41,103 bases of DNA. Source: an uncultured Hyphomicrobiales bacterium (GTDB taxonomy: Bacteria > Pseudomonadota > Alphaproteobacteria > Rhizobiales > Devosiaceae). The notes below the pieces were generated by a model, which was not told the origin of the DNA, searched no databases, and saw only the letters and a program-made list of their open reading frames with translations. Every line of letters starts with the position of its first letter. The first letter of the stretch is position 1. Positions 24,927 to 40,261 of this stretch are shown piece by piece. The position numbers were made by a program, and so were the translations under genes. The stretch covers positions 1 through 41,103 of the forward strand of contig CAIKKY010000011.1 of assembly GCA_903828145.1 (NCBI GenBank). Direction: 5' to 3'.

Positions 24927-25637
24927 CTAGAGAATTCCAGTGGCTCCACGCGCGACGCTGAAGGCCTCTGTCAGATTGCGCCCAAATACCCGCATGCCGG
25001 AGGGGAATGCCACCACAACATCACCGCCGAATAGGCTGACATCGGCTGCCTTACCGGCCCGGATTTGCTCTACGTTATATTGCGCGACATAGTCACGCCC
25101 GCCGGAGGACCTGAACACGTAGACGCTCGCTGGGTCACCAATCCCAGTGAAGTTACCTGCAATGGCAACAAGGCGCAGTAGGCTGGCGCCAGGGGCAAGC
25201 GGATAGGCGCCGGGCTTGGCGAACTCGCCATCCATCGTCACCGTCTGTTCAAGCGTGACCGTAATCTGGGGGTCCTGCAGGTATTTGGACCCATAGAGAT
25301 CCGTGATTGTCGCCTCAACTTCGTCTAGGGTCTTACCGAGAACAAAAACCGGTCCAACTAGTTGAAGTGTGACATTGCCGGCACCGTCGACGGCGGCTGA
25401 CTGGTTAAGATTGTCCACGCCGAATACGGCCAGTTTTACCGTATCGCCCACTCGAACGACGGGCGAAATAACAAGGCCGTCCGCCGGCCCTGGCAACTGC
25501 GTCACCGTAATGAGCCCTGACGTAACTTCCGCACCGGACGGCATGCCCGTGAGCGACGGGCCTGTACCTGCACAGCCGGCGAGCGCCATCGCAACGAGCA
25601 CAATAATCAAGGCCGGCGCCAGAAACGCGCCCCTCAA
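24927..25637 (-). CDS. Outer-membrane polysaccharide export lipoprotein (Wza/ExoF-like)
   Basis: A 236-residue lipoprotein. The N-terminus has a hydrophobic signal ending in the lipobox LAGC (Cys22). The polysaccharide-export domain follows (VVRVGDTVKLAVFGVDNLNQ, then GNVTLQLVGPVFVLGKTLDE), then an SLBB-like part (TMDGEFAKPGAYPLAPGASL). It is shorter than Escherichia coli Wza (about 380 residues), fitting the short alphaproteobacterial forms. It should form the outer-membrane channel fed by the Wzc-like protein. TTG at 25637 overlaps the stop of the phosphatase gene by four bases, with GAGGTGG upstream. Confidence 0.9.
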   Translation of the reverse strand: MRGAFLAPALIIVLVAMALAGCAGTGPSLTGMPSGAEVTSGLITVTQLPGPADGLVISPVVRVGDTVKLAVFGVDNLNQSAAVDGAGNVTLQLVGPVFVLGKTLDEVEATITDLYGSKYLQDPQITVTLEQTVTMDGEFAKPGAYPLAPGASLLRLVAIAGNFTGIGDPASVYVFRSSGGRDYVAQYNVEQIRAGKAADVSLFGGDVVVAFPSGMRVFGRNLTEAFSVARGATGIL

Positions 25638-26446
25638 CGCGCCACCTCTATGGGTCGGATAAACTGCGTTGAGAACCTGAACTTATTCAATGGACGACGA
25701 CCTCCCTGGTCTGACAAGACAAGAGGATGGCCTGCCAGAACGGCTTGTGGATTGGCAACGAAGATGCGCTCCGCCTCTCGCCACCCGACCAGCGCTTCAA
25801 CGAGGCGCCGAGCATCGCCCAAAAGGTGTGGACGTCGTGAGGCATGATGGGCATCAGAAGCAATAAGCCCAACGGCACCCGTCTCGAGCAGCCACCGCGC
25901 AAGGCGCAGCGCCTCTCGTCCGAAAAACCCAACCAGGGACCCCGCCGTCACCTGGAGGTGAGCTCCCAATCCAACATAGCCAATGATCTCTTCAATATGC
26001 CGCCCGGCCCAGAGCAGGCGCTCTGGGTGAGCAACTATCGGGAGGTACCCGGCTTCAATGAGCGCGCCGAAGTAAGCGTCAAGCCGCGGCAGCCTCACAT
26101 CGGCAGGGGGCTCGAGAAGAACATATCGGCCCTCGGCAAGTGTCGGAATTTCCCCACGCTTGAGGCGTGTCTCGACATCACCCGTAATCCGAATTTCCGC
26201 CCCAGTATGAAGGGTGAGCGGAATTGCCGCGCGCGAAAGCTCACATTGAAATGCCGCCACCGCGATCCGTACCGCCTCCGTGGTGTTGTTATACACTCCG
26301 GGCACCACGTGCGGTGTACAGATCGCGTCAGTAATGCCTTCCTCAACGGCAAGGCTGGCGAGTTTCAGGGCGTCTCTCAACGAGCCTGGCCCGTCATCAA
26401 TCTCGGGAAGTAAATGGCAGTGGCAATCGACAATAGCAGCTCGCAC
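25634..26446 (-). CDS. CpsB/YwqE-type PHP-domain tyrosine-protein phosphatase
   Basis: A 270-residue manganese-dependent phosphatase of the PHP superfamily. Metal ligands are visible in VDCHCHLLPEIDDGPGS at the N-terminus, AICTPHVVPG near residue 45, HTGAEIRI, IVAHPERLLWAG near residue 145 and LIASDAHHASRRPH near residue 195. CpsB-like enzymes remove phosphates from the tyrosine cluster of Wzc-like kinases, and that gene lies two genes downstream. GTG at 26446 is the start: GGAGG ends five bases before it; the nearby ATG at 26448 is out of frame. Confidence 0.92.
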   Translation of the reverse strand: MRAAIVDCHCHLLPEIDDGPGSLRDALKLASLAVEEGITDAICTPHVVPGVYNNTTEAVRIAVAAFQCELSRAAIPLTLHTGAEIRITGDVETRLKRGEIPTLAEGRYVLLEPPADVRLPRLDAYFGALIEAGYLPIVAHPERLLWAGRHIEEIIGYVGLGAHLQVTAGSLVGFFGREALRLARWLLETGAVGLIASDAHHASRRPHLLGDARRLVEALVGWREAERIFVANPQAVLAGHPLVLSDQGGRRPLNKFRFSTQFIRPIEVAR

Positions 26447-27374: not shown

Positions 27375-27785
27375 TCACTGCCCCTTGGGCAGGAGCCGGA
27401 AGTCCGGCAAGTCGCGTAACAGGCGCTCAGGCCCGGCCGGCGAATAGACCACAAAGAGCTGCATCGGGCCGCTGCCGGTATTCAGCGTCGAATGAAAGCG
27501 GCTCTCGGGCACGAAAACGGTGCAACCGGGGCCGACCTGCTGCACCTCCGGCACGCCCTCCGGCGTTTCGACCATCTGTTCGCCATGGCCCGAAATCACG
27601 AAGATGATCTCCTCAGCGCCCGGGTGGTTATGCCGGGTATGTCCCTGGCCGGGGGGCAGGTCGACCACACCGCCTGAAAAGCGTACGGCCCCGTTCACCT
27701 CGGGCCCCACCGTAAGCGCCAGCCTGCCCCAGTCGAACCCGAAGGCGTTGACATCCTTGGGGGTAACGAAATTGTTCTCGGCCAT
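27375..27785 (-). CDS. Single-domain cupin protein
   Basis: A 136-residue cupin. Motif 1 reads GHTRHNHPGAEEIIFVISGHGE with the metal-binding HxH and glutamate; motif 2 is PESRFHSTLNTGSGP with the third histidine. It would be a small metal-dependent sugar isomerase/epimerase or binding protein; the C-terminal SPAGPERLLRDLPDFRLLP is common in cupins of catabolic loci. It is the last of three minus-strand genes with the TIM-barrel and Tm-1-like proteins, 20 bases after the former. AAGGAGAGG precedes the ATG. Substrate unknown. Confidence 0.85.
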   Translation of the reverse strand: MAENNFVTPKDVNAFGFDWGRLALTVGPEVNGAVRFSGGVVDLPPGQGHTRHNHPGAEEIIFVISGHGEQMVETPEGVPEVQQVGPGCTVFVPESRFHSTLNTGSGPMQLFVVYSPAGPERLLRDLPDFRLLPKGQ

Positions 27786-27805
27786 TGCTGTGCCTCTCCT
27801 TGAGT

Positions 27806-28642
27806 TTATGCGCCGGTCTTCAGCGCCTTGAAGCCTTCGACCTGCGCCTTGATGGCCAGTTCAACCGGCAGGCGCTCCATGGAACTGGCGCCATAAAAGC
27901 CGTGGCAGCCTTTCACGCAGTCGAGAATGAACCGGGCGTCGGCGGGCATGGCGATGGGCCCGCCATGGCAGAGCACCAGCACATCCGGACGCACGCCGCG
28001 CGCGGCGGCGGCAATCGCCTCGATTTCGGCGGCGCACATATCGAGCGTCTTTGCCGCTTTGGCGCCAATGGCCCCGCCGGTGGTCACGCCCATATGGGCC
28101 ACGATGAGGTCGGCCCCGGCACGCGTCATCGCCACGGCTTCGTCAGGGTTGAACACATAGGGCGTGGTGAGGAGATCCTGCCGGTGCGCCTCGGCGATCA
28201 TATCCACCTCAAGCCCGTAGCCCATGCCGGTTTCCTCGAAACTGACGCGCATCACCCCATCAAACAGGCCAATCGTGGGGAAATTCTGCACACCGGAAAA
28301 GCCCATGGCTTTCAGCTCGGCCAGAAACTGCGGCATCAACACAAAGGGATCGGTGCCATTAACGCCTGCCAGCACTGGCGTGTGCTTCACCACCGGCAGC
28401 ACTTCGAGCGCCATCTCCTTGACGATCTCATTGGCATTGCCATAGGCGAGCAACCCGGCCGCCGAGCCGCGACCGGCCATGCGATAGCGGCCGGAATTGT
28501 AGATGATGATCAGGTCGATCCCGCCGGCTTCCTCGGATTTGGCCGAAATCCCGGTGCCCGCCCCGCCCCCGACAATGGGAATGCCATTGGCCACCATGGC
28601 ATGAAATCGCTTGAGAATGTCGGCACGGGCAAGAGCGGCCAT
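27806..28642 (-). CDS. Phosphoenolpyruvate-hydrolase-family TIM-barrel protein
   Basis: A 278-residue protein of the family annotated as phosphoenolpyruvate hydrolase, which corresponds to the C-terminal half of the plant resistance protein Tm-1. Visible features are [69 protein letters not shown] and [12 protein letters not shown], then a phosphate-site-like VLCHGGPIA and [12 protein letters not shown]. The ATG at 28642 is chosen over the open frame to 28699 because AGGAAG lies seven bases upstream. It follows the Tm-1-like gene by 16 bases, so the two halves of Tm-1 are separate but adjacent genes. The reaction is not established. Confidence 0.85.
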
Positions 28643-28658
28643 CGGGGCTTCCTGACGC

Positions 28659-29846
28659 TTAGGGTTGAGCAATGGCCGAAAAAACGGCCACGGCGGCATC
28701 GGCGAATTCGGGGTCGTTGATATGATAGGGGACGCGGATAACCTGCCGCTGGGCGGTGAGCTTCAGGGTTGATTCCACCGCAGCAAACAGGGCCTGATCA
28801 GCCGCTTCGTCGTAAAAAGCACCACCCACCCGATCCAGCGCCGAGACACCTTTTTCGGGAATCAGCAGACGCACCGGCCCGGCGCAGCGGTTCAGCTTTT
28901 CGGCAATGAAGGTGCCGATGGCGCGGTTTTCGTCAACGCTGGTGCGCACCAGCGTGACATTGGCGTTGTGCTCGTAGATCGCGCGACCCGCAAAGTGCGC
29001 GGGTACGCTGCTGCGCGCCCAGAAATTGATCATGTCGCAGGCGCCCAGCGAGCCCACATAGGGCACGCCCGTGCGGGCGATGCAATCGAGCCGATCCGGA
29101 CCGGCGGGCAGCACGCCGCCAAACAGCAGGTCGGCAATCTCGGTGGTGGTGATGTCGATCACCCCGGCGAGGAGGCCCGAATCGACCAGCATTTCGAGGG
29201 TACGCCCGCCCGTGCCGGTGGCATGGAAGATCACGGGTTCGAAGTCAGCCCTGAGCGCGTCGGCAATGCGGGTGACGCACGCCGTGGTCACCCCGAACAT
29301 GGTCAGCCCGATGGCGGGCTTGCCGTCCTCCACCACGGGAGGGGTAACGCTCATGGCGGCGATCGCCGCTGCGGCGTTCGAAAGCACCACGCGGCTGATG
29401 CGGTTGAGCCCGGCAAGGTCAGTGATCGCGGGCATCATGACGATGTCGGAGACACCGACAAACGGCCCCACATCGCCCGATGCGAGGGTTGAAACCATCA
29501 GCTTGGGCAGCCCGATCGGCAGGGCCCGCATGCCCGCCGTGATCATCGAGGTTCCGCCGCCCCCGCCGATGCCGATGATCCCCGCCACATCACGGCGCGT
29601 GCGGATAAAGGCCTCAAACGCCTGCGCCATGCCGGAAACCGCCACGCCGCGATCTGTACCGCCAAGGAGCCCGGGCGGCCCGAACGCCGCCACCTCGGTG
29701 GCCGCGATATCCGGCCTGATGGAGGGGCTCTGCGTGCCCACATCGACCACCAGCGGATGGGCACCGAGCGCCCGCAACCGATCAGCGAGGAAAGCCAGTT
29801 CCTCGCCCTTGGTATCCGCGGTCCCTGCAACATAGATGCGCTTCAA
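28659..29846 (-). CDS. Tm-1-like ATP-binding protein (UPF0261)
   Basis: About 395 residues matching UPF0261, the N-terminal ATP-binding half of Tm-1. Characteristic parts: [50 protein letters not shown] (nucleotide-binding loop), [36 protein letters not shown] and [20 protein letters not shown]. The start is a TTG at 29846 with GAGGGG six bases upstream; this puts MKRIYVAG at the N-terminus as usual. It diverges from the TetR gene across 122 bases. Function in bacteria is not established; linkage to sugar import and catabolism is the main clue. Confidence 0.85.
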
Positions 29847-29954
29847 AACCGGCCCCTCAGCGCAGATTGTTCTGGCAACGGCGCGCCAAAAACGCGCCAG
29901 CACGACCAACTATAGGCAGAGCCCATGCGCCATTGCAAAGCATTTTGAGATGTG

Positions 29955-29971
29955 CATATCATTTCGATATG
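29955..29971 (+). promoter_or_regulatory. Candidate operator overlapping the TetR start codon
   Basis: A perfect inverted repeat CATATC-ATTTC-GATATG; the last three bases are the ATG of the tetR-type gene. It lies in the divergent region between the Tm-1-like gene and the regulator, the classic place for a TetR operator that represses both directions. Binding is inferred. Confidence 0.6.
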
Positions 29972-30598
29972 ACAGTCTCACTTCCAGACGCCGGTCTCAA
30001 CGAAGCGCGTGGACCGCGGGCCCGCACCCGCAAACTGATGCTCGAAACCGCAGTGGCGCTGATGCAGCAGGGGCAGACCCCCTCGATCAGCGATGTGGCG
30101 CAGGCAGCTGAAGTCTCGCGGGCCACGGCCTACCGCTATTTCCCCACGCAGGCCGCGCTGGTGCATGCGGCGGTGGACGCGGCGCTCGGGCCCATTCTCG
30201 AATGGCAGTCCGAGAGCGATGATCCGGAGACGCGGGTCAAGGAACTGCTGCGCACCTCGATGCCGCGCATTCAGGAGTTTGAGGCCACATTCAAGGCGGC
30301 GCTGAAGCTCTCTCTCGAGCAATGGGCGCGGCGGCAGGCGGGCACGCTGGGCGATGAAGCCCCCTTCAAGCGCGGCCACCGGCTGGAGATGCTGCAAAAG
30401 GCCATCGCGCCACTCGAGGGGCGGCTGCCCCCGGCTGAATTTCAACGCCTCGCGCAGGCCCTGTCGCTGGTTTACGGGCTCGAACTGCTCGTGGTGCTGA
30501 AGGACATGTGGGGGCTCGATTTCGACGGGATCCAGTCGGTGGCCGAATGGGCCGCCGCAGCGCTGGTCCGCGCGAGCCTAGAGGAGGCGCGGGCGTAG
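29969..30598 (+). CDS. TetR-family transcriptional regulator
   Basis: A 209-residue TetR-type repressor. The DNA-binding domain is near the N-terminus: RTRKLMLETAVALMQQGQTP, then SISDVAQAAEVSRATAYRYF as helices 2 and 3, followed by PTQAALVHAAVDAAL. The remaining helical part (ERKR-poor, with EATFKAALKLSLEQWARRQA) would bind a small ligand. The ATG at 29969 is used; the open frame extends further up but lacks homology. It probably controls the divergent Tm-1-like operon and perhaps the ABC operon that starts 353 bases downstream. Confidence 0.88.
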   Translation: MTVSLPDAGLNEARGPRARTRKLMLETAVALMQQGQTPSISDVAQAAEVSRATAYRYFPTQAALVHAAVDAALGPILEWQSESDDPETRVKELLRTSMPRIQEFEATFKAALKLSLEQWARRQAGTLGDEAPFKRGHRLEMLQKAIAPLEGRLPPAEFQRLAQALSLVYGLELLVVLKDMWGLDFDGIQSVAEWAAAALVRASLEEARA

Positions 30599-30951
30599 GT
30601 CAGGGTCTTCGCAATCCAGATTTTCGCGTCGGTCAGGATGCAAAAATGCTAACATGTTAGCTTGACGAGGACGCAAAAGGCGTTGAGACTTTAAGGGCCC
30701 GAAAGGGAAAACCGGATGCGGCGGGTGCTGAGGGGCATCAGGCTGCGGGAGAAGACGGGCCAGACGAACGGCCCCTGATCCCGGCGGATAGGCGGCACCG
30801 GTGGCCTGTTTGAATGCGAACGCGATCCTGTTGGTCCATCGGGCCGCGCGATTTCGGGAGCTGCTGATTGCCCCCGGCACGGAGGAGGGGCTTCGGCGCG
30901 GCGCGAGGATTGGCGCCCGCCGTTGGTGTGAGCACGATAGGGAGAACCAAG
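30599..30951 (+). promoter_or_regulatory. Leader of the ABC transporter operon
   Basis: No gene is seen. The left part holds the palindrome at 30648-30661 followed directly by TTGACG, which could be a -35 element, though no good -10 box stands at the normal distance. The long leader up to the ribosome site (GGGAGAACC before 30952) is GC-rich without a clear riboswitch fold. Confidence 0.4.
30648..30661 (+). promoter_or_regulatory. 14-bp perfect palindrome, candidate operator
   Basis: GCTAACATGTTAGC is fully self-complementary and abuts the TTGACG hexamer upstream of the importer operon. It differs from the CATATC repeat at the TetR start, so a second regulator is likely. The truncated regulator-like gene at 40294 could once have served this site. 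Confidence 0.55.
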
Positions 30952-32262
30952 ATGCGCATTGCAACCAAGGGCATGCTGGCTGGCTTGAGCCTGCTGCTGA
31001 TGTCGGGAACGTCGGCACTGTCGACCGAACTGACCATCTTCTGGGCCGAATGGGACCCGGCAAACTACCTTCAGGAACTGGTCAACCAGTACGAAGCAGA
31101 AACCGGCGTGACGGTGACCGTTGAGACCACGCCCTGGTCCGATTTCCAGACCAAGGCCTTCACCGAGTTCAACGCGCAGGGTTCGGCCTATGATCTGATC
31201 GTCGGCGACAGCCAGTGGCTGGGTGCGGCGTCGGAAGCCGGGCACTATGTCGACCTCACCGATTTCGTGAAGGAAAACGGCGTTCTCGACAAAATGGCGC
31301 CGGCCACGGTGAAGTTCTATTCCGAATACCCGGGCAATTCCGGCAAGTACTGGTCGATCCCGGCCGAAGGCGACGCCGTGGGCTGGTCCTACCGCAAGGA
31401 CTGGTTTGAAGACCCCACCGAAATGGCCAATTTCAAGGCCAAATACGGCTATGATCTCGCCCCGCCCACCAATTGGCAGCAGCTGATCGACATTGCCGAG
31501 TTCTTCTACCGGCCCGACCAGAACCGCTATGGCGTGGCGATCTATACCGACAACTCCTACGACGCCATGGCCATGGGCTTTGAGAACGCGCTGTTCTCCT
31601 ATGGCGGCGAACTGGGCGATGCCTCGACCTACAAGGTGGATGGCATCATCAACTCGCCCAAGGCGGTTGCCGCGCTCGATGCCTACCGGAAGCTCTACGG
31701 CTTCACGCCTCCGGGCTGGGCCAAGACCTTCTTCGTGGAAAACAATCAGGCCATCACCGAAAATCTCGCGGCGATGAGCATGAACTACTTCGCCTTCTTC
31801 CCGGCGCTAATCAATGAATCCTCGAACCCGAACGCCAAGAATACCGGCTTCTTCGCCAACCCGGCCGGCCCGGATGGCGATCAGTACGCCGCGCTCGGCG
31901 GTCAGGGCATTTCGGTGGTCTCCTATTCCCAGAACAAGGAAGAGGCCATGAAGTTCCTGAAGTGGTTCATCCAGGACGATACCCAGCAGAAGTGGGCTGA
32001 TCTGGGCGGTTACACCTGCTCGGCCAAGGTGCTGGAGAGCGAAGCCTTCCGCAACGCCACCCCGTATAACGAAGCCTTCTACCAGACCATGTTCAAGGTG
32101 AAGGACTTCTGGGCGGTGCCGGAATATGCAGAGCTTCTCACTCAGCTGAACCAGCGCCTCTACCCCTCGATCGTGGGCGGTGAAGGCTCGAGCCAGGACG
32201 TGCTCGATGGTCTTGCAGCGGACTGGAAGGCGACCTTCGCCAAGTACGGCCGCGGCATGTAA
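30952..32262 (+). CDS. ABC transporter extracellular solute-binding protein, family 1
   Basis: A 436-residue periplasmic binding protein. The signal peptide is MRIATKGMLAGLSLLLMSG with cleavage probably after about residue 24; the mature start TELTIFWAEWDPANYLQELV and the later AYDLIVGDSQWLGAASEAGH are usual for carbohydrate-binding family 1 proteins. A long C-terminal lobe follows (GGQGISVVSYSQNKEEAMKF). ATG at 30952 with GGGAGAACC upstream is preferred over the longer frame. In the Glp-like layout of this operon it corresponds to GlpV, but the ligand here is unknown; the downstream isomerases point to a sugar, polyol or glycoside. Confidence 0.9.
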   Translation: MRIATKGMLAGLSLLLMSGTSALSTELTIFWAEWDPANYLQELVNQYEAETGVTVTVETTPWSDFQTKAFTEFNAQGSAYDLIVGDSQWLGAASEAGHYVDLTDFVKENGVLDKMAPATVKFYSEYPGNSGKYWSIPAEGDAVGWSYRKDWFEDPTEMANFKAKYGYDLAPPTNWQQLIDIAEFFYRPDQNRYGVAIYTDNSYDAMAMGFENALFSYGGELGDASTYKVDGIINSPKAVAALDAYRKLYGFTPPGWAKTFFVENNQAITENLAAMSMNYFAFFPALINESSNPNAKNTGFFANPAGPDGDQYAALGGQGISVVSYSQNKEEAMKFLKWFIQDDTQQKWADLGGYTCSAKVLESEAFRNATPYNEAFYQTMFKVKDFWAVPEYAELLTQLNQRLYPSIVGGEGSSQDVLDGLAADWKATFAKYGRGM

Positions 32263-32277
32263 CGGCAAATCCGGCCT

Positions 32278-32303
32278 CCCCTTTCGCCCTCGGGCGGAAG
32301 GGG
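32278..32303 (+). terminator. Stem-loop between binding-protein and permease genes
   Basis: CCCCTTTCGCC and GGCGGAAGGGG form an eleven-base stem with one G-T pair and a four-base loop, 15 bases after the stop codon of the binding-protein gene. No U-run follows. Such hairpins often stabilise the upstream message so that the binding protein is made in excess over the permeases. Confidence 0.6.
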
Positions 32304-32445
32304 ATCGCCACGACGGATGAGGGGGGCGCATGCGGCTGACCGCAATGACGGTGCACATCCTCCCCTCGCCCTGATCGCGCCCTGCCCCGCGGGTCTTGAG
32401 CCCCAAAGCACGGCGCGCCGAACAAAGCCTTGGGAGAACAGTGCC

Positions 32446-33348
32446 TTGACCAGTTTGATTGCCACGCTCGACCCCGGGTCGCGCGCCGCCACGCGGGGCC
32501 TCAGCGATATTGCGATCCGGAACCTCTTCGTCATCCCGACGATCGTGTTCCTCATCATTTTCAATATCTTCCCGCTGCTGTATTCGCTTGGCTACTCGTT
32601 CACCGATTTTCGGGCCTCGACCAAGGATCCGGCCAATTTCATCGGCCTCAAGAACTACATGGATCTGCTGTCCGATCCGAACATCTGGTCGAATTTCACC
32701 ATCACCGCGCAATATGTGATCGTGTCGGTCACCGGCCAGGTGATCGTCGGGTTCGGGCTCGCGCTGCTGCTCAACCGCAGCTTTCCGCTCAAGGGCCTCG
32801 TCACCACGTTGCTGCTTCTGCCGATGATGCTGTCCATGGCCGTGGTCGGACTGTTCTGGAAACTGCTCTATGACCCCAATTTCGGCATCATCAACTATGC
32901 GCTGGGCCTCGGAAAATTCGAATGGCTCGCCAACCCGAAATTTGCGCTCTACGCCGTGGCGCTCACCGACGTGTGGATGTGGTCGCCCTTCGTGATGCTG
33001 CTGTCGCTGGCCGGTCTGTCGGCGGTCCCCAAGCACCTCTATGAAGCCGCCTCGATCGATCGCGCCAGTCGGCTCTACACCTTCTTCCGCATCACGCTGC
33101 CGCTGGTGGCACCCATCCTCCTGATCGCGATCATCTTTCGCACCATGGAGGCCTTCAAAACCTTCGATCTGGCCTATGTGATGACCTCGCAGCCCACCAC
33201 CGAAGTGGTGTCGATCCGGCTCTACAAGATGGCTTTTCAGGAGTGGCAGACCGGCAAGTCCTGTGCCCTCGCCTATATCGTGCTGATCATGGTGCTCTGC
33301 ATCACCAATGTTTACGTCAAGTACCTGAACAAAGCGAAGGAACGCTAA
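32446..33348 (+). CDS. ABC sugar transporter permease 1
   Basis: About 300 residues with six hydrophobic segments, starting with IRNLFVIPTIVFLIIFNIFP. The inner-membrane coupling (EAA) motif is seen as LYEAASIDRASRLYTFFRIT, contacting the ATPases. The TTG at 32446 is chosen: it follows GGGAG, and starts MTSLIATLD..; the longer open frame runs through the hairpin region and has no homology. It pairs with the next gene two bases after its stop. Carbohydrate uptake type 1 family. Confidence 0.88.
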   Translation: MTSLIATLDPGSRAATRGLSDIAIRNLFVIPTIVFLIIFNIFPLLYSLGYSFTDFRASTKDPANFIGLKNYMDLLSDPNIWSNFTITAQYVIVSVTGQVIVGFGLALLLNRSFPLKGLVTTLLLLPMMLSMAVVGLFWKLLYDPNFGIINYALGLGKFEWLANPKFALYAVALTDVWMWSPFVMLLSLAGLSAVPKHLYEAASIDRASRLYTFFRITLPLVAPILLIAIIFRTMEAFKTFDLAYVMTSQPTTEVVSIRLYKMAFQEWQTGKSCALAYIVLIMVLCITNVYVKYLNKAKER

Positions 33349-33349
33349 A

Positions 33350-34306
33350 ATGGCCGTCGTCTCTTCCCGCGGCCAGCGCCTGAGCAACCGCGTTGCCATT
33401 GCCGCCATTCTCGTCATCACGCTGGTGTTTCTGGCGCCGATTTACTGGATCGGCTCCACGGCCTTCAAGCCGCGCAGCCTCGCCACCACGTCGCCGCCGA
33501 CCATCGTCTACCAGCCCGAAATCTCACCCATGGTGAAGCTCTTCACCAAACGGGTGCAGCTGAAGCCCAATGAGAAGGTCGATTACGACAACGCCCCTTG
33601 GTGGGAACGGATGATCTTTGATGGCGGCGAGCGCATTTCGCGCACCGGCAAAGGGGCAATCCAGCTCTCGGGCTATCCGGACCGCTTCATCAACTCGCTG
33701 ATTGTCGCCGTCACCTCAACACTGCTCGCGGTGGGTATGGGCACGATCACCGCCTATGGCTTCTCGCGGTTCAGGGTGAAGGGGGAGGCGGACTGGCTGT
33801 TCTTCATTCTCTCCACCCGAATGCTGCCCCCCATCGTGGTCGCCATTCCGATGTTCCTCATGTATCGGGCGGCCGGGCTCAACGACAGCCATGTCGGCCT
33901 CATCCTGCTCTACACCGCGTTCAACGTGTCGTTTGCGGTGTGGCTGATGAAGGGCTTCATCGACGAAATCCCGAAGGAATATGAGGAAGCGGCGCTGGTC
34001 GATGGCTATACGCGGCTCCAGGCCTTCTGGAAGATCGTGCTGCCCGAGGCCGCGACCGGCATCGCAGCAACCGCAGTGTTCTGCTTCATCACGGCGTGGA
34101 ACGAATATGCCTTCGCGCTGATCCTCACCAACAAGAAGGCCCAGACCGCGCCGCCGTTCATTCCCTCGCAGATCGGTTCGGGTCTGCCGGACTGGACCGT
34201 GATTGCGGCCGGTACGGTTCTGTTCCTTCTGCCTGTTGCCATCTTCACGTTCCTGCTCCGCAACCACCTGCTGCGCGGCATGAGCTTTGGAGCGATCCGG
34301 AAATGA
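33350..34306 (+). CDS. ABC sugar transporter permease 2
   Basis: A 318-residue permease of the MalG-like group. An N-terminal helix (ILVITLVFLAPIYWIGS) is followed by a long periplasmic insertion (about residues 40 to 105, with PWWERMIFDGGERIS), then five more helices. The EAA motif is EYEEAALVDGYTRLQAFWKI near residue 205, and SLI..STLLAVGMGTITAYGFSRF marks the permease core. The insertion is characteristic of the GlpQ-like permeases as I recall them. It begins right after the previous stop and overlaps the next gene by four bases. Confidence 0.88.
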   Translation: MAVVSSRGQRLSNRVAIAAILVITLVFLAPIYWIGSTAFKPRSLATTSPPTIVYQPEISPMVKLFTKRVQLKPNEKVDYDNAPWWERMIFDGGERISRTGKGAIQLSGYPDRFINSLIVAVTSTLLAVGMGTITAYGFSRFRVKGEADWLFFILSTRMLPPIVVAIPMFLMYRAAGLNDSHVGLILLYTAFNVSFAVWLMKGFIDEIPKEYEEAALVDGYTRLQAFWKIVLPEAATGIAATAVFCFITAWNEYAFALILTNKKAQTAPPFIPSQIGSGLPDWTVIAAGTVLFLLPVAIFTFLLRNHLLRGMSFGAIRK

Positions 34307-34530
34307 ATATTCGTGTGTTCAACCAGCGCTTTCTTGAGCCCGGCGCCCAGGCGCTGATGATCCTCGGCATCATCTTTTTGTGCCAGCCCTGGATCGAACT
34401 GCTGCACCAGTACTCCGTCACCATCATGCTCATCGGGCTGATTGGCTTCAACATCGCGGTGCATATCCCGGCCCCGGAAAAGACCGTGATCGAGGAAGAA
34501 GCGACCGAGCAGGACCACGCCCATGGCTGA
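34303..34530 (+). CDS. Small inner-membrane protein of the Glp-like ABC system (GlpU-like)
   Basis: A 75-residue protein starting with ATG at 34303, inside the ATGA overlap with the permease stop. It has two hydrophobic stretches, ALMILGIIFLCQPWIELL and VTIMLIGLIGFNIAVHI, and an acidic, histidine-ending tail. In rhizobial glycerol importers the small protein GlpU lies in the same operon, and I equate the two by position and build; the sequence similarity should be tested. Its end overlaps the first ATPase gene by eight bases. Role unknown, perhaps assembly or regulation of the permeases. Confidence 0.7.
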   Translation: MNIRVFNQRFLEPGAQALMILGIIFLCQPWIELLHQYSVTIMLIGLIGFNIAVHIPAPEKTVIEEEATEQDHAHG

Positions 34531-35629
34531 GATCGAACTGCGCCATATCAACAAGCATTTCGGCCCGGACCACGTGATCCGCGATGTGAGCCTGACGGTG
34601 AAGGACCGCGAATTTGTGGTGTTTCTCGGCCCCTCGGGCTGCGGCAAGACCACAACCTTGCGCGCCATTGCCGGGCTTGAGGAAATCGACGAGGGCGACA
34701 TCCTGCTTGATGGCAGGCCGATCCAGGGGCTGCGCGCCGCTGACCGCGACATTGCCTTCGTGTTCCAGAACTATGCGCTCTACCCGCATTTCACCGTCTA
34801 CGAGAATCTGGCGTTTCCGTTGCGCGCCGTGGGCACGGCCCGCGATGCGCTCGACAGCACCGTGCGCTCGGTCGGCAAATCGCTGGGGATCACCCACCTC
34901 CTGAACGCCCGGCCCTCGGCACTCTCGGGCGGTGACATGCAACGCGTGGCCATTGGCCGGGCGCTGGTGCGCCGCCCCAAGGCGCTGCTGCTCGATGAAC
35001 CCATCGGTTCGCTCGATGCCAAACTGCGCGAAACCATGCGGGTGGAACTGAAGCGGCTGCATTTCGAGAACGGCTCGACCTCGATCTATGTCACGCATGA
35101 TCAGGTCGAGGCCATGTCGCTGGCCGACCGCATCGTCGTGATGAATGATGGCGTGTTGCAGCAGGTGGGCACGCCCACCGAGGTCTATCTCTACCCGGCC
35201 AACCTGTTTGTCGCCCAATTCATAGGCTCGCCGGTGATGAACATTGCGTCGGCCACCATCCGCAGCGATGGCGGCCAGGCCAGCGTCACCCTGGACGACG
35301 CCAGTTTCGACATGCCCGCCGACCTCCTCGGTATGCTCGACAAAAAACGGGCCGCCCCTGCCCTGTCGCTCGGCGTGCGTCCCGAGGGCGTGCTGGTGAG
35401 CCATACCGATCAGCCCGGCTATCGCCCGGCCGAGGTCCACCTGATCCAGCCCTATGGCGGGTTCGACATTGTGGACCTGCGCTTCGGCAGCAAGACCCTC
35501 AGGGCCCGGACCAGTTCGGGCTATGTCGACAGGATCGGTGCCCGGGTCTTCGCCCGCATCGCCCCTTCACAGACGCATTTTTTCGACACCCAATCGGGCG
35601 CCTCGCTCGACTTACGGCTAGGCGACTGA
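34523..35629 (+). CDS. ABC transporter ATP-binding protein 1 (MalK/GlpS-like)
   Basis: A 368-residue ATPase. Walker A is GPSGCGKTTT near residue 40, the Q-loop is VFQNYALYPH, the signature is ALSGGDMQRVAIGRAL (aspartate at the variable fifth position), Walker B is ALLLDEPIGSLDAKL and the H-loop YVTHDQVEA. A C-terminal regulatory TOBE-like domain from about residue 240 is typical of the CUT1 family. It is one of two different ATPases in the operon, so the importer is probably powered by a heterodimer. Confidence 0.92.
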   Translation: MAEIELRHINKHFGPDHVIRDVSLTVKDREFVVFLGPSGCGKTTTLRAIAGLEEIDEGDILLDGRPIQGLRAADRDIAFVFQNYALYPHFTVYENLAFPLRAVGTARDALDSTVRSVGKSLGITHLLNARPSALSGGDMQRVAIGRALVRRPKALLLDEPIGSLDAKLRETMRVELKRLHFENGSTSIYVTHDQVEAMSLADRIVVMNDGVLQQVGTPTEVYLYPANLFVAQFIGSPVMNIASATIRSDGGQASVTLDDASFDMPADLLGMLDKKRAAPALSLGVRPEGVLVSHTDQPGYRPAEVHLIQPYGGFDIVDLRFGSKTLRARTSSGYVDRIGARVFARIAPSQTHFFDTQSGASLDLRLGD

Positions 35630-35630
35630 C

Positions 35631-36704
35631 ATGGCCCGCATCCGTCTTGAAAACATCTCCAAGAATTTCGGGCCGCACACGGCGGTCGAAGATCTTGATC
35701 TCGACATCGCCGATGGCGAATTCTTCGTGCTGCTCGGGCCCACCGGCGCTGGCAAGACCACGACGCTGCGCATGATTGCCGGGCTCGACAAGCCAACCGT
35801 CGGGCGCATCTTCATCAACGAGGCCAATGTCAACGACTGGGGCCCGGCTGAGCGCGACGTAGCGCTGGTGCTGCAGCAATATTCGCTCTATCCGCGCCTC
35901 ACGGTGCGCGACAATCTCGCGTTTCCGCTGCGCTCGCGCGTGCGCAACCTGGCGCCGGCGGAGATTGACCAGCGCATCGATTATGCAGCACGCACGCTGC
36001 GCATTACACACCTGCTCGACCGCAAGACTGACCGGCTCTCGGGCGGCGAAATGCAGCGCGTGTCCATCGGCCGCGCCATCGTGCGTGAACCGCAGGTGTT
36101 CCTGATGGACGAGCCGCTGTCCGCGCTCGATGCCAAACTGCGCGAGGCACTGCGCACCGAACTGAAAGACCTGCAGCGGCGCCTGGGGGCAACCTTCATC
36201 TTCGTCACCCATGATCAGGTGGAAGCCATGACCATGGGCGACCGGATCGCCATTCTCAACCGCGGCCAGATCGTGCAGGTCGGTGCCCCGCAGGACGTGT
36301 ATTCCAACCCGCGCGATACGTTCGTAGCGAGTTTTGTCGGCGCCCCCGCCATCAATCTCCTGAAGGGTGAAGTGCAGGGCGGCCGCGCCGTGGTGACACC
36401 CAAAAGCTTCGAACTGCCAGTGGCGGGTCAGGCACCGGGCGCGGGCAGCTATATTTTCGGCATCCGCCCCGAGGACGTGCGGGTCGAGAGTGGCGCGCCG
36501 GTGGAAGGCCGCGTCCATGACATTGAGAACCACGGCATCGAGAAGATCATCACCGTGCGGGTCAACGAGCACTTCGTGCGCGCCAGCATTCCCGCCCGCG
36601 TGGATGTCGCGCTCGAGGAAGTCATCCGCTTCGGCTGGAACGCGGAAAAACTGATCTATTTCGACCCCAGAACGGGGATCAACACCCGGCACCAGATCGC
36701 CTGA
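35631..36704 (+). CDS. ABC transporter ATP-binding protein 2 (MalK/GlpT-like)
   Basis: A 357-residue ATPase beginning one base after the previous stop codon. Walker A GPTGAGKTTTLRMIAG, Q-loop VLQQYSLYPR, signature RLSGGEMQRVSIGRAI, Walker B VFLMDEPLSALDAKL and H-loop FVTHDQVEAMTMGDR are all intact. The C-terminal TOBE-like part contains YIFGIRPEDVRVESG. With the first ATPase it resembles the GlpS/GlpT pair of rhizobial glycerol importers. Both halves look catalytically complete. Confidence 0.92.
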   Translation: MARIRLENISKNFGPHTAVEDLDLDIADGEFFVLLGPTGAGKTTTLRMIAGLDKPTVGRIFINEANVNDWGPAERDVALVLQQYSLYPRLTVRDNLAFPLRSRVRNLAPAEIDQRIDYAARTLRITHLLDRKTDRLSGGEMQRVSIGRAIVREPQVFLMDEPLSALDAKLREALRTELKDLQRRLGATFIFVTHDQVEAMTMGDRIAILNRGQIVQVGAPQDVYSNPRDTFVASFVGAPAINLLKGEVQGGRAVVTPKSFELPVAGQAPGAGSYIFGIRPEDVRVESGAPVEGRVHDIENHGIEKIITVRVNEHFVRASIPARVDVALEEVIRFGWNAEKLIYFDPRTGINTRHQIA

Positions 36705-36719
36705 CAGGGCGGGGTGCCA

Positions 36720-36745
36720 CCCCATGCCCCCCGAGGAGCATGGGG
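36720..36745 (+). terminator. Stem-loop between transporter and enzyme genes
   Basis: CCCCATGC and GCATGGGG form an eight-base perfect stem with a ten-base loop in the 108-base gap after the second ATPase gene. No U-run follows. It may lessen or stabilise transcripts at the border between import and catabolic genes. Confidence 0.5.
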
Positions 36746-36812
36746 CGAGACAGCATCGGCCACGCCTCGCTGAGGGCGCGGCCACAGGACAAAGCCTCTG
36801 GGAGGAGGGACC

Positions 36813-37859
36813 ATGCCGAACAATTACCCCAAACTGCATAACGCCGCCTGGCCGGGCATTGTGGGCAAGGGCGCGCCGGACAGCGAGCCGATCATTGCGC
36901 TCGACACGCTCTTGCGCCTCACCGCCAATGCCGAAGTGGACGGGCAGAAATTCGACGGGATCGACCTGTTCGTCACAGCGCCGCATTTCGATATCGACAG
37001 CGATGCTGGCGCGGTGCGCAAAATGACCGACCATATCGCCAGCTTTGGCCTCAAAGTCGGCTCCTTTGTCGCCCCCATCTGGGGCGGCGCGGGCGGCGGT
37101 TCGGCCATGGGCGACGCCGATGAGGTCAAACGCTTCCTCACCCAGGTGAAGAAAGCCTCAAAGATCGGCCAGCAGATGCGCGAGCTGGGCATTCGCCCGA
37201 CCGGCGGCATCCGCGTCGACAGTTCAGTGGGCGTAGAGGCCTGGGACGCCGATCCCGAAGGCAACACGAAGAAGATCGCCGCCACCTTCCGTGAGGCCGG
37301 CAAGATTGCCGCTGACCACGGCGAATATATCGTCGCCGAAGGCGAAATCTGCTGGGGCGGCATGCATTCCTGGCGCGAAAACGTGAAGCTGCTCGAAATG
37401 GTCGGCATGCCGGGCGTCGTCGGCTATCAGGCCGATATGGCGCATTCCATGCTGTTTGTGCTTGGCGCCAATGCCGAGAAAGACCGGCTCCTGCCCGCCG
37501 ATTTCGAGTGGAGCGACAAGGCCGCGCTCGATGCCGCCTATCACCAGGTGGCCGATGCGCTGCGCCCCTGGACGCTCGATTTCCACGTCGCGCAGAACGA
37601 CGGCACCACCTTCGGTTCGGGCACTCATGAAAAGACCGGCCGCCATTGCCAGATCGACGACCCCAATGGGCGGCTCGATGTGACCAAGCACGCCGGATAC
37701 TGGCTGCGGGACGACAAGGGCACCATTACGAAGACAATGCGCCACATCTGCTGGGATGGCTGCATGTTCCCGAACGCGGTGATGGAGCAGCAGTCCACCT
37801 GGAACAAGGTGCTGGGCGCGATGATCAAAGTGCGCGAAGCCCATGGCTGGCGCGAATAG
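36813..37859 (+). CDS. Xylose-isomerase-like TIM-barrel protein (sugar isomerase/epimerase family)
   Basis: A 348-residue member of the sugar phosphate isomerase/epimerase superfamily, longer than the usual 260 to 290. Likely metal-site residues are in [20 protein letters not shown] (Glu and His), [15 protein letters not shown] (Asp/His), [17 protein letters not shown] and the final half CWDGCMFPN. An insertion with [20 protein letters not shown] may cover the active site. Next to a Gfo/Idh enzyme it may act on a keto-sugar or keto-glycoside, as pairs of these families do in inositol and C-glycoside pathways. Start ATG at 36813 with GGGAGGAGG upstream. Confidence 0.8.
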
Positions 37860-37875
37860 GGCTGAGGGGGAGATC

Positions 37876-39009
37876 ATGACCAAGACCTTGAATGTCGGCA
37901 TGGTGGGGTACGGCTTTATGGCCCGCGCCCACTCCAATGCCTGGGCCAATGTTTCGCACTTCTTCGATACCGGCTACCGGCCGGTGCTGAAGGCGGCCGC
38001 GGCCCGCAACGTGTCCAAGCTTCGCCATTTCGGCGAGCAATGGGGCTATGAGAGCCTTGAGGACGACTGGCGCGCGCTGGTTGCACGGAAAGATATCGAC
38101 GCCATCGATATCTGCGTGCCCAATGATCTGCATGCTGAAATCGCCATTGCGGCGGCCAAGGCCGGCAAGATGGTGCTGTCGGAAAAGCCGCTGGCCCGCA
38201 CCGAGGCCGAAGCCCTGCCCATGGTGGAAGCGGTCGAAAAGGCCGGCGTGCCCAATATGGTCTGGTACAATTACCGCCGGGTTCCGGCGGTGACGCTGAT
38301 CAAGAACCTCGTGGACTCGGGCCGCATCGGCAAGACTTTCCACTACCGCGCAAAATTCCTGCAGGATTGGACGATTTCTCCCGATGTGCCGCAGGGCGGC
38401 GCAGGCACCTGGCGGCTCGATGTCAATGCCGCCGGCTCGGGCGTGACCGGCGATCTTCTCGCCCATTGCCTCGATACCGCCACCTGGATCAATGGCGGCA
38501 TCACCTCGCTGACAGCGATGACCGAAACCTTCATCAAGCAGCGCAAGAGCACCGAAACCGGCCAGGTTGAGGACGTGGGCATCGATGATGCCGCTGCCGT
38601 GCTCACCCGCTTTGCCAATGGGTCGCTCGGCACTTTTGAATCCACCCGCTACGCCCGTGGGCACAAGGCGCTCTACACGCTGGAAATCAATGGCGAAAAG
38701 GGCTCGCTCGCCTGGGATCTGCACGATCTCAACCGGGTGCAGTTCTTCGACCATTCGGTGGAAGGCCAATTGCGGGGCTGGACCAATATCCTCGTCACCG
38801 ATGGCGAGCACCCCTATCTCGGTAAGTGGTGGGTGCCGGGCCTGATCATTGGCTACGAGCATAGCTTCACCCATCAGGTCGCCGATTTCCTCGACGGGCT
38901 GCGCACCGGCAAACCGGCGGCGCCGACCTTCCGCGAGGCGCTCGGCACCAACCGCATCTGCGACGCCATCATCGCCTCGGGCCGCTCTGGCCAGTGGGTC
39001 AACATCTAA
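37876..39009 (+). CDS. Gfo/Idh/MocA-family oxidoreductase
   Basis: A 377-residue NAD(P)-dependent sugar oxidoreductase. The Rossmann motif is [19 protein letters not shown]; the EKP motif appears as [16 protein letters not shown]; the catalytic stretch is [19 protein letters not shown], with an aspartate and histidine in the family positions. ATG at 37876, preceded by GAGGGGGAG, is preferred over the in-frame ATG at 37843, which lies in the previous gene. It probably oxidises a ring hydroxyl of the imported compound, with the two TIM-barrel neighbours working on the keto product. It is not close to the WbpB-like enzyme of the EPS operon. Confidence 0.87.
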
Positions 39010-39059
39010 CCAGGGGCCGGGGCCGCGCGCCCCGCCTCTTCCCTTCGCCGGAGTGCGCC

Positions 39060-39911
39060 ATGAAACTCGGGTTCAACCTGCTGCTGTGGACCTCGCATGT
39101 CACCGAGGCCGAATGGCCGATCATCGAAAAGCTGAAAGCCACCGGCTTCGACGGGGTTGAGGTGCCGATGTTCGAGGGCGATGTCGCCCATTACGAAAAG
39201 CTGGGCCGGCACCTTGCGGCGCTCGGGCTCAAATCAACCGGCATCGGCGTCATGCCGGGCGGGGGCAAGAACGCGCTCTCGCCCGATAAGGCCGAACGCG
39301 CTGCCGCGCTTCAGCACCTCAAATGGCTGATCGACTGCACGGCCGCAATCGGCGGCGATATCGCCGCTGGTCCCTTCCACCAGCCCTTGGGCGAGTTTTC
39401 GGGCCAGGGTCCCACGGCCGACGAAATCGCCCGCTGCGTCGAGGTGCACCAGGCCGCAGCAGACTACGCGGCGCGGCACAGGATCACCCTCGCGGTCGAA
39501 CCGCTTAACCGCTTCGAGTGCTATTTCCTCAATTCGGCGGCGCAGGCAGCGAGCCTCGTGAACAAGGTCGGCGCGCCGAATTACGGCTATCTCTACGACA
39601 CGTTCCATTTCAACATCGAAGAAGACTCGATCACCGCCGTGATCCCCCAGACCATCGGACAAATCAGCCATGTCCATATCTCGGAGAACAATCGCGGCGT
39701 CCCCGGGGCCGGCCATATCGACTTCCAGTCGGTGTTCAACGCCCTGAAAGGTGCTGGCTATGACGGCTGGATGACGATTGAGGCCTTTGGCGCCGCCCTG
39801 CCCGGCCTGGCCGCCGCCACCAAGATCTGGCGGCCGCTGTTTTCGCGCTACGAGGATGTCTACGAAAAAGGCTACGCGCTGATGCGCGCGGGCTGGGATC
39901 AGGCGAAATAG
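39060..39911 (+). CDS. D-tagatose/D-psicose 3-epimerase-like TIM-barrel protein
   Basis: A 283-residue protein of the tagatose 3-epimerase/hydroxypyruvate isomerase type. Catalytic and metal residues line up: the glutamate in ITLAVEPLNRFECYFLN (about residue 148), Asp and His in YGYLYDTFHFNIEED, His in GQISHVHISENNRGVPG, and the second glutamate in GYDGWMTIEAFGAALPG. Such enzymes epimerise ketohexoses at C3 with a divalent metal. ATG at 39060 is used since the frame upstream overlaps the previous gene. It suggests that a keto-sugar occurs in the pathway. Confidence 0.85.
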   Translation: MKLGFNLLLWTSHVTEAEWPIIEKLKATGFDGVEVPMFEGDVAHYEKLGRHLAALGLKSTGIGVMPGGGKNALSPDKAERAAALQHLKWLIDCTAAIGGDIAAGPFHQPLGEFSGQGPTADEIARCVEVHQAAADYAARHRITLAVEPLNRFECYFLNSAAQAASLVNKVGAPNYGYLYDTFHFNIEEDSITAVIPQTIGQISHVHISENNRGVPGAGHIDFQSVFNALKGAGYDGWMTIEAFGAALPGLAAATKIWRPLFSRYEDVYEKGYALMRAGWDQAK

Positions 39912-39928
39912 CATAGGGACAGGAGACG

Positions 39929-40261
39929 ATGATGAAGCGCATGGGACGCATCATCCGGGTGAAACCCGAGCATCTCGAGGAGTATCAGCGCATTCATGCC
40001 GCGGTGTGGCCTGATGTGCTCAAGGTGATCTCCGCCGCGAACATGACCAATTATTCGATCTTCCTCAAAGAGCCGGAAAACCTGCTCTTTGCCTATCTCG
40101 AATATACCGGCACTGATTTCGACGCCGACATGAAGCGGCTTGGAGAAGAGCCCGCGATGCAGCGCTGGTGGACGCTGACCGACCCGATGCAGGAGCCCGT
40201 CGACACCCGCGCCCCCGGCGAGTGGTGGGCCGAAATGCGCAGCGTCTTCTTCCACGCCTGA
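39929..40261 (+). CDS. rhaM: L-rhamnose mutarotase family protein
   Basis: A 110-residue dimeric alpha/beta-barrel protein of the RhaM family: MGRIIRVKPEHLEEYQRIHA, WPDVLKVISAANMTNYSIFL, LFAYLEYTGTDFDADM and a terminal RSVFFHA with histidine. It converts alpha and beta anomers of L-rhamnose or a similar 6-deoxy or pentose sugar. No rhamnose isomerase, kinase or aldolase is nearby, so the true sugar may differ. ATG at 39929 has AGGAG upstream; a second ATG directly follows. Last gene of the catabolic operon. Confidence 0.87.
   Translation: MMKRMGRIIRVKPEHLEEYQRIHAAVWPDVLKVISAANMTNYSIFLKEPENLLFAYLEYTGTDFDADMKRLGEEPAMQRWWTLTDPMQEPVDTRAPGEWWAEMRSVFFHA

Follow-up and report, generated by a model that had tools for sequence, protein, structure and literature searches.

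The window analysed in this work, the entire 41,103-base contig CAIKKY010000011.1 from the 2.95 Mb genome of an uncultured Hyphomicrobiales bacterium, carried in its last third a divergent gene set whose members very probably belong to a single catabolic unit, the likely substrate being a sugar or a compound derived from one. The minus strand encoded a UPF0261 protein (28659..29846), which is a homologue of the N-terminal part of tomato Tm-1 and a proposed kinase, a stand-alone PEP_hydrolase-like TIM barrel (PEPH, 27806..28642) and, as third gene of this trio, a cupin (Cupin_2, 27375..27785). Diverging from the trio, the plus strand encoded a TetR-family regulator (29969..30598), a solute-binding protein (SBP_bac_1, 30952..32262), two permeases (BPD_transp_1, 32446..33348 and 33350..34306), a 75-amino-acid membrane protein (34303..34530), two ATPases (ABC_tran, 34523..35629 and 35631..36704), and four putative sugar enzymes: a xylose-isomerase-like barrel (TIMA, 36813..37859), a Gfo/Idh/MocA dehydrogenase (GFO, 37843..39009), a second xylose-isomerase-like barrel resembling tagatose/psicose 3-epimerases (TIMB, 39060..39911) and a RhaM-family mutarotase (39929..40261). 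What was observed directly is which genes are present, how their linkage is conserved, and which folds and residues are kept. The open-licence literature, searched by parts of the set, yielded no description of a system made up of these genes.

Gene layout and the conserved core

Genome contigs were scanned with PEPH; of the 380 relatives confirmed, the best 80, most of them Mesorhizobium, Devosia and Rhodobacteraceae, were taken as a sample of close relatives, presence being scored by fixed score thresholds. All nine core genes (UPF0261, PEPH, cupin, TetR, solute-binding protein, two permeases and two ATPases) were present in 59 of the 80 loci, and the solute-binding protein with both permeases in 67. 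Among loci of at least 19 kb the full core was found in 54 of 63; 12 of the 21 loci without it were stretches shorter than 19 kb. Because the same TetR/trio/importer block was found again in relatives, the layout is not a product of chance. Two stretches had no TetR match (L062 and L076, the latter also with a weak cupin), and permease 2 was split into two pieces in L002. Ten of the 80 close relatives had TIMA; in the other 70 none was seen within the stretch read, some stretches being short. Most Mesorhizobium, Rhizobium and Rhodobacteraceae stretches contained the trio and importer with no TIMA or GFO within the stretch read, and for this reason the four sugar enzymes are regarded as a lineage-specific extension of a wider core that consists of the trio plus importer. 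An earlier reading of the window made from the sequence alone (the sequence-only reading) had joined all these genes: every gene that it named was found at its place, with Pfam scores above the curated cut-offs, and the trio does travel with this importer elsewhere, in most of the close relatives sampled, but the sugar enzymes are not a general part of the unit. Importer swaps were apparent in L025, L047, L053 and L066, three of which were labelled Mesorhizobium.

The core was also found on plasmids of Sinorhizobium meliloti and Rhizobium leguminosarum. By homology, pSymA of S. meliloti 1021 carried the nine core genes, together with the small membrane protein, in the order of the window; neither TIMA nor GFO was found in the 19 kb read there. 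The solute-binding protein of the window was 79-81% identical to its Sinorhizobium plasmid homologues (rows H61-H64). Near the plasmid cores of the two species were a weak TIMB-like epimerase (96-98 bits), an enolase-superfamily dehydratase, a 2-hydroxyacid dehydrogenase and an M24 peptidase-like gene. In the core cluster of S. meliloti ml47, permease 2 (L112:6391-7346) lay in two pieces and was absent from the (incomplete) gene table; it may be broken in this strain, and in strain 1021 it is undivided.

The importer was of a six-part Glp-type. Pfam scores were 113 bits for the solute-binding protein, 64.5 and 78.2 bits for the permeases, and 112.1 and 111.5 bits for the ATPases. The 75-amino-acid protein, known from its translation and with homologues at the same place in relatives, had no Pfam match; it is presumably DUF2160-like, a label suggested by its position, and the DUF2160 profile (PF09928) had 0 matches in the window's own genome and likewise matched in 0 of 14 controls. 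For the other genes the scores were 51.8 (cupin), 418 (PEPH), 29.9 (TetR_N; the regulator was kept in relatives), 82.2 (GFO_IDH_MocA), 147.3 (AP_endonuc_2, TIMB) and 111 bits (rhaM), and the assignment of TIMA was weak (AP_endonuc_2, 34.7 vs. a cut-off of 31.1 bits). The start codons probably lie inside the longest open reading frames, judging from the sequence and homologue lengths: at 29846 for UPF0261 (longest frame to 29909), 28642 for PEPH (to 28699), 29969 for TetR, 30952 for the solute-binding protein, 32446 for permease 1 and 39060 for TIMB (longest frame from 38994). The intergenic region between UPF0261 and TetR spanned 29847..29968, and a perfect 14-base palindrome, GCTAACATGTTAGC, was located at 30648..30661, upstream of the importer; it was not conserved, its 10-base core being missing from both gaps in 66 relatives. 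As the window is a whole contig, an operon continuing beyond RhaM would escape notice. On the other side, Poly_export, SLBB and CpsB/CapC genes (24927-26446, Pfam) adjoined the trio, which suggests that the left part of the contig is an exopolysaccharide cluster.

The proposed kinase and the sugar enzymes

UPF0261 belonged clearly to its family (PF06792 for the N-terminal part, 190.8 bits, and PF23189 for the C-terminal part, 295.6 bits, vs. 27). Its AlphaFold model had a predicted local distance difference test (pLDDT) of 94.3 (46 sequences), and Foldseek placed Tm-1 at the top (3wrw/3wrx/3wry, 41% identity). The best bacterial structural match was 9mpy (E 3.6e-34, 34% identity), which is Saro_1862, a UPF0261 domain protein of Novosphingobium aromaticivorans with acetovanillone bound. 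Of 49 columns invariant in the 46 UPF0261 sequences, 35 were the same in 9mpy, including 21 of the 25 polar ones; the polar columns that differed were T188, E218, N274 and E306, and F275 and P282 were among the other columns lost. PMC13101465 cites MarK as a single-component kinase starting acetovanillone catabolism in N. aromaticivorans, and likens the pathway to a kinase, carboxylase and phosphatase route. Since Saro_1862 binds acetovanillone and its species has an acetovanillone kinase, the kinase that seemed to be missing from the operon is probably UPF0261, which by this analogy we consider a good candidate for an ATP-dependent small-molecule kinase. The sequence-only reading had counted no kinase, which would then be wrong, and had seen no settled bacterial role for the Tm-1 pair, for which 9mpy with acetovanillone and MarK now offer a lead. 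The HpeHI two-component kinase does not explain the UPF0261-PEPH pair, because it is a different, ATP-grasp system (PMC12167813). A Brucella UPF0261 gene is listed as scored in a mutant screen (PMC2364660).

Specific names were not applied to the sugar enzymes, because the equivalog cut-offs tested (levoglucosan dehydrogenase, rhamnose mutarotase, inositol dehydrogenase and psicose epimerase) were all missed. TIMB scored 138 bits with the psicose/tagatose 3-epimerase model NF051856 (cut-off 300); the four residues Glu-Asp-His-Glu, which we take to be the metal ligands of ketose 3-epimerases, all aligned by eye with 7dz2. RhaM scored 58.4 bits with the rhamnose equivalog TIGR02625 (cut-off 99.6), and L-rhamnose isomerase, kinase and aldolase genes were not found among the operon's Pfam matches; a second RhaM-family gene was located elsewhere in the window's genome (G000:C29:173397-173699; L220, L244). 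GFO scored 113.7 bits with the inositol dehydrogenase model IolG TIGR04380 (cut-off 355) and 313.1 bits with its best NCBIfam model, levoglucosan dehydrogenase NF052479 (cut-off 650). These missed cut-offs support the claim, made from the sequence alone, that the operon matches neither the rhamnose nor the inositol pathway. In the PDB the best match of GFO was 4h3v, followed by 6a3f, here taken as a levoglucosan dehydrogenase on the strength of PMC10066097, which names 6A3I of the same set. For TIMA, a possible levoglucosan eliminase or hydratase, the model was only moderate (pLDDT 78), and its Foldseek matches were many epimerases with near-equal scores, among which the hydratase AtHYD (8ro4) ranked fourth.

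Linkage between the sugar enzymes and the Tm-1 pair

TIMA was found in 34 of the 397 genomes sampled from the order; in a class draw (1 of 385) and a phylum draw (1 of 398), both of which include some genomes of the order, the only match was each time the window's own genome, and none was found in the plasmids searched. PEPH was present in 29 of the 34 TIMA genomes vs. 117 of the 397 in the background (Fisher p 2e-12, relatedness ignored), and lay within 15 kb of TIMA in 21 of these 29; in 5 of the remaining 8, UPF0261 was at most 13.4 kb from TIMA and PEPH on another contig. GFO accompanied TIMA in 31 of the 36 TIMA stretches read (some from the same genome), and the five without it (L008, L009, L011, L038 and L173) stop beside TIMA. 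Three stretches (L157, L236 and L240) had UPF0261, PEPH, cupin, TIMA, GFO and TIMB with a Glp-type importer, L157 also having RhaM, and three others (L159, L235 and L238) combined TIMA-GFO with a different importer, RhaM, UPF0261, PEPH and an SRPBCC-type protein. Two genomes (G208, L229 with L250; G068, L227 with L251) had this second set minus PEPH, which was found on another contig, and L234 resembled L235 with a Glp-type importer in place of the other. The pair thus accompanied these sugar enzymes in other families too, where the genes were differently ordered, as expected of the single linked and undescribed unit that the sequence-only reading had proposed, and this repeated reassembly, in varied orders and with varied importers, favours one pathway. 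A conserved protein of about 146 amino acids (L229:17403-17840 and relatives, cluster c45) followed the importer ATPase in several TIMA operons and matched nothing in Pfam or NCBIfam under the limits applied.

TIMA occurred without PEPH in 5 of the 34 genomes, and the four of these neighbourhoods that were read (L221-L224) had TIMA-GFO-TIMB with an Rbs-type importer (Peripla_BP_4 by Pfam in L224; ATPase and permease by homology) and no Tm-1 pair. A galactarate/altronate dehydratase-family gene was present in all four and a FucU-type mutarotase in three (Pfam on L224; homologues); found beside TIMA-GFO-TIMB, FucU appears to take the place of RhaM. That a sugar-acid dehydratase simply replaces the Tm-1 pair was rejected, since L234 has both; the dehydratase is therefore no less a further step than a substitute, and either way it supports sugar-acid chemistry. 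L226 additionally had Dak1, triosephosphate isomerase and PfkB genes (Pfam). From these variant neighbourhoods (L221-L224, L234 and L226) we infer a sugar substrate with an acid intermediate and, possibly, triose-level products, and a sugar-type rather than an aromatic substrate is considered likely.

The opposite view of the substrate is that of an imported aryl glycoside: GFO and TIMA would detach the sugar through oxidation to the 3-keto form and elimination, its handling would fall to RhaM and TIMB, and UPF0261 would phosphorylate the phenol, the pair phosphorylating and cleaving the aromatic aglycone. The acetovanillone in 9mpy and the levoglucosan dehydrogenase model as the best one for GFO agree with this, and PMC10628242 describes a Mn-dependent beta-eliminase of Agrobacterium for 3-keto flavonoid glucosides; AtHYD among the matches of TIMA would fit too, but it was not separable from the many epimerases. 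Among other settings of the pair, UPF0261 was fused to an importer-type ABC ATPase domain in 23 of 51 genes (60 hand-picked stretches of the order; for example L128:7203-9431, Pfam on L128), and in L128 this fusion lay in a Liv-type importer operon with PEPH, flotillin, Polyketide_cyc2 (SRPBCC-type) and a molybdenum (Mo)-hydroxylase of the carbon monoxide dehydrogenase type. Such relatives (class B) link the pair to Mo-hydroxylases and SRPBCC-type proteins; however, ring-cleavage and aromatic-acid genes were not among the operon's Pfam matches, and it is a sugar-acid dehydratase-family gene that stands beside TIMA in L221-L224 and L234. We consider the aryl-glycoside view unlikely.

Somewhat less probable still is that the trio with the importer and TIMA-GFO-TIMB-RhaM are two independent units, merely sharing a promoter region in this lineage. 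The 70 close relatives without TIMA in the stretch read, the five TIMA genomes without PEPH, and L225, in which TIMA-GFO stood without pair or importer in the stretch, would fit two units, but not the presence of PEPH in 29 of the 34 TIMA genomes, nor the linkage of TIMA and PEPH in several families, in varied orders and with different importers.

The two halves of Tm-1 were themselves closely tied. UPF0261 was present in 133 of the 397 genomes, and in 116 of the 117 with PEPH, the sole exception being 67% complete; PEPH was missing from 17 of the 133 UPF0261 genomes, three of which (G039, G139 and G190) matched only at E ~1e-4. The plant protein has both domains, and co-evolution of the two halves is reported in PMC5028733; the genome partnership found here extends it. 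A haloarchaeal plasmid carried PEPH-cupin-UPF0261, and in the PEPH plasmid matches L118 and L120 no adjacent UPF0261 partner was annotated. Found in these several other settings, the pair is best regarded as a module that can be exchanged and is often tied to uptake.

The PEPH of the window was of the stand-alone type of PF09370: it matched the profile, had no fused output domain and carried H183, T187, H226 and E256. Its best PDB match was 2p10 (E 1.5e-124), and no experimental bacterial function was found for it in the open-licence literature. Among 53 aligned stand-alone barrels (262-292 amino acids) 40 columns were invariant, 16 of them polar, and H183, H226 and E256 were kept in all 53. 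The 13 long barrel proteins (L114:6863-8695, L131:12156-13865 and 11 others) all carried a sigma-54 activator part, identified by Pfam in L131 and by homology in 13 of 13; in these H183 and H226 were replaced in 13 of 13, E256 was changed to Asp in 13 of 13, and T187 was changed in 12 of 13. This pattern is not a statistical test, because the columns had been selected as invariant in the 53 stand-alone barrels, and a single ancestor may underlie all 13 fused ones. The retention of two His lost in the sigma-54-fused barrels makes PEPH look catalytic and fits a stand-alone enzyme with the fused barrel as a sensor offshoot; that it is a lyase or hydrolase acting on a phosphorylated product is put at a little under even chances. 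The remaining view, that the trio forms a module for sensing or regulation which controls unrelated importer and sugar genes, is suggested by the name “TIM-barrel signal transduction” and by the 13 sigma-54 fusions in these neighbourhoods, but it is improbable, the fusions lacking both His that every stand-alone barrel keeps and the PEPH of the window lacking an output domain.

Proposed pathway and known systems

In the pathway favoured here, TetR would keep both arms repressed as long as neither the substrate nor an intermediate is present, the compound would enter through the Glp-type importer, and RhaM would equilibrate its anomers. GFO would oxidise the compound with NAD(P), and TIMA and TIMB would rearrange the keto or acid product, the order of the GFO, TIMA and TIMB steps being an inference. 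UPF0261, as an ATP-dependent kinase of the Saro_1862 type, would phosphorylate the rearranged product, on which PEPH would then act, a C-C lyase or hydrolase reaction being most likely, and the cupin, whose counterpart in some relatives is an SRPBCC protein, might assist a stereochemical or dehydration step. Kinase and PEPH would form an exchangeable end module, placed on different importers and front ends and corresponding, in bacteria, to the two domains of plant Tm-1. For the whole reading, from import, oxidation and isomerisation to phosphorylation by UPF0261 and the action of PEPH on the phosphorylated product, our preference is slight.

Several observations weigh against it. The kinase role rests on a protein about 34% identical which binds an aromatic and not a sugar, and on the identity of MarK with Saro_1862, which is probable and was deduced; the class B operons with pair, Mo-hydroxylase and Liv importer fit aromatics or heterocycles as well as sugars. 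A sequence-profile search with PEPH gave no convincing PDB relative beyond 2p10 (all others at E 0.026 or worse), and the change of E256 to Asp is mild. A TetR operator common to both arms was sought in 66 relatives and none was found. The linkage also had gaps: UPF0261 was not matched in 4 of the 80 close-relative stretches (L005, L012, L038 and L054) and was not found beside PEPH in L125 and L038/L173, being present elsewhere in these genomes (G015 and G261; in G261 a second locus has UPF0261 adjoining TIMB, a point in favour of the unit); no PEPH stood beside UPF0261 in L226, L250 and L251. L013 and L014 had the trio and TetR without the Glp-type importer, and the four loci with the apparent swap kept TetR and trio with low-scoring importer genes where this importer was expected, for which reason they appear to carry another one. 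Lastly, the dehydratase-family gene of L234 lies beside a TIMA operon that does have UPF0261 and PEPH.

The gene set is widely shared among soil bacteria, yet uncharacterised. UPF0261 and PEP_hydrolase-like proteins are common in the order, mostly without a named function, and their fusion is tomato Tm-1. If the pair is a kinase with a dependent lyase, many hypothetical proteins would gain a testable chemistry, and a metabolic role of Tm-1L, none of which was found in the open-licence literature, would be open to direct experiment; TIMA, seen so far only in this order, would mark a new carbohydrate route in soil bacteria. More tentatively, and with some doubt, UPF0261 and stand-alone PEPH may be a general kinase-then-lyase module moved among pathways and importers, with plant Tm-1 as its fused form, a virus-resistance gene descended from, and maybe still, a bifunctional metabolic enzyme.

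Among known systems, the levoglucosan pathway (LgdA, LgdB1, LgdB2 and LgdC) likewise combines a Gfo/Idh dehydrogenase, PF01261 barrels and an ABC importer, according to PMC10066097. The operon of the window adds RhaM, UPF0261 and PEPH to such a set and is without a second Gfo/Idh protein of the LgdC type. Saro_1862, probably MarK, shares the UPF0261 fold, but the protein of the window is nearer to Tm-1 (41%) than to Saro_1862, and it is accompanied by PEPH and a sugar-type operon. The rhizobial glycerol importer GlpSTPQUV has two ATPases, two permeases, a solute-binding protein and a small DUF2160-type membrane protein; judged by gene order, the importer of the window is made up alike, with the 75-amino-acid protein, for which the DUF2160 profile gave no match, as the presumed counterpart of the small one. 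Unlike in the glycerol system, glycerol kinase and glycerol-phosphate dehydrogenase were not among the operon's Pfam matches. In inositol catabolism, phosphorylation by the kinase IolC is followed by C-C cleavage by the aldolase IolJ, which offers a model for how the UPF0261-PEPH pair may work, although the folds are unrelated. Plant Tm-1 and Tm-1L have the same two domains, with a fold match for the N-terminal one, in a single protein where the window has separate genes, and the binding of a virus helicase is a trait of plant Tm-1.

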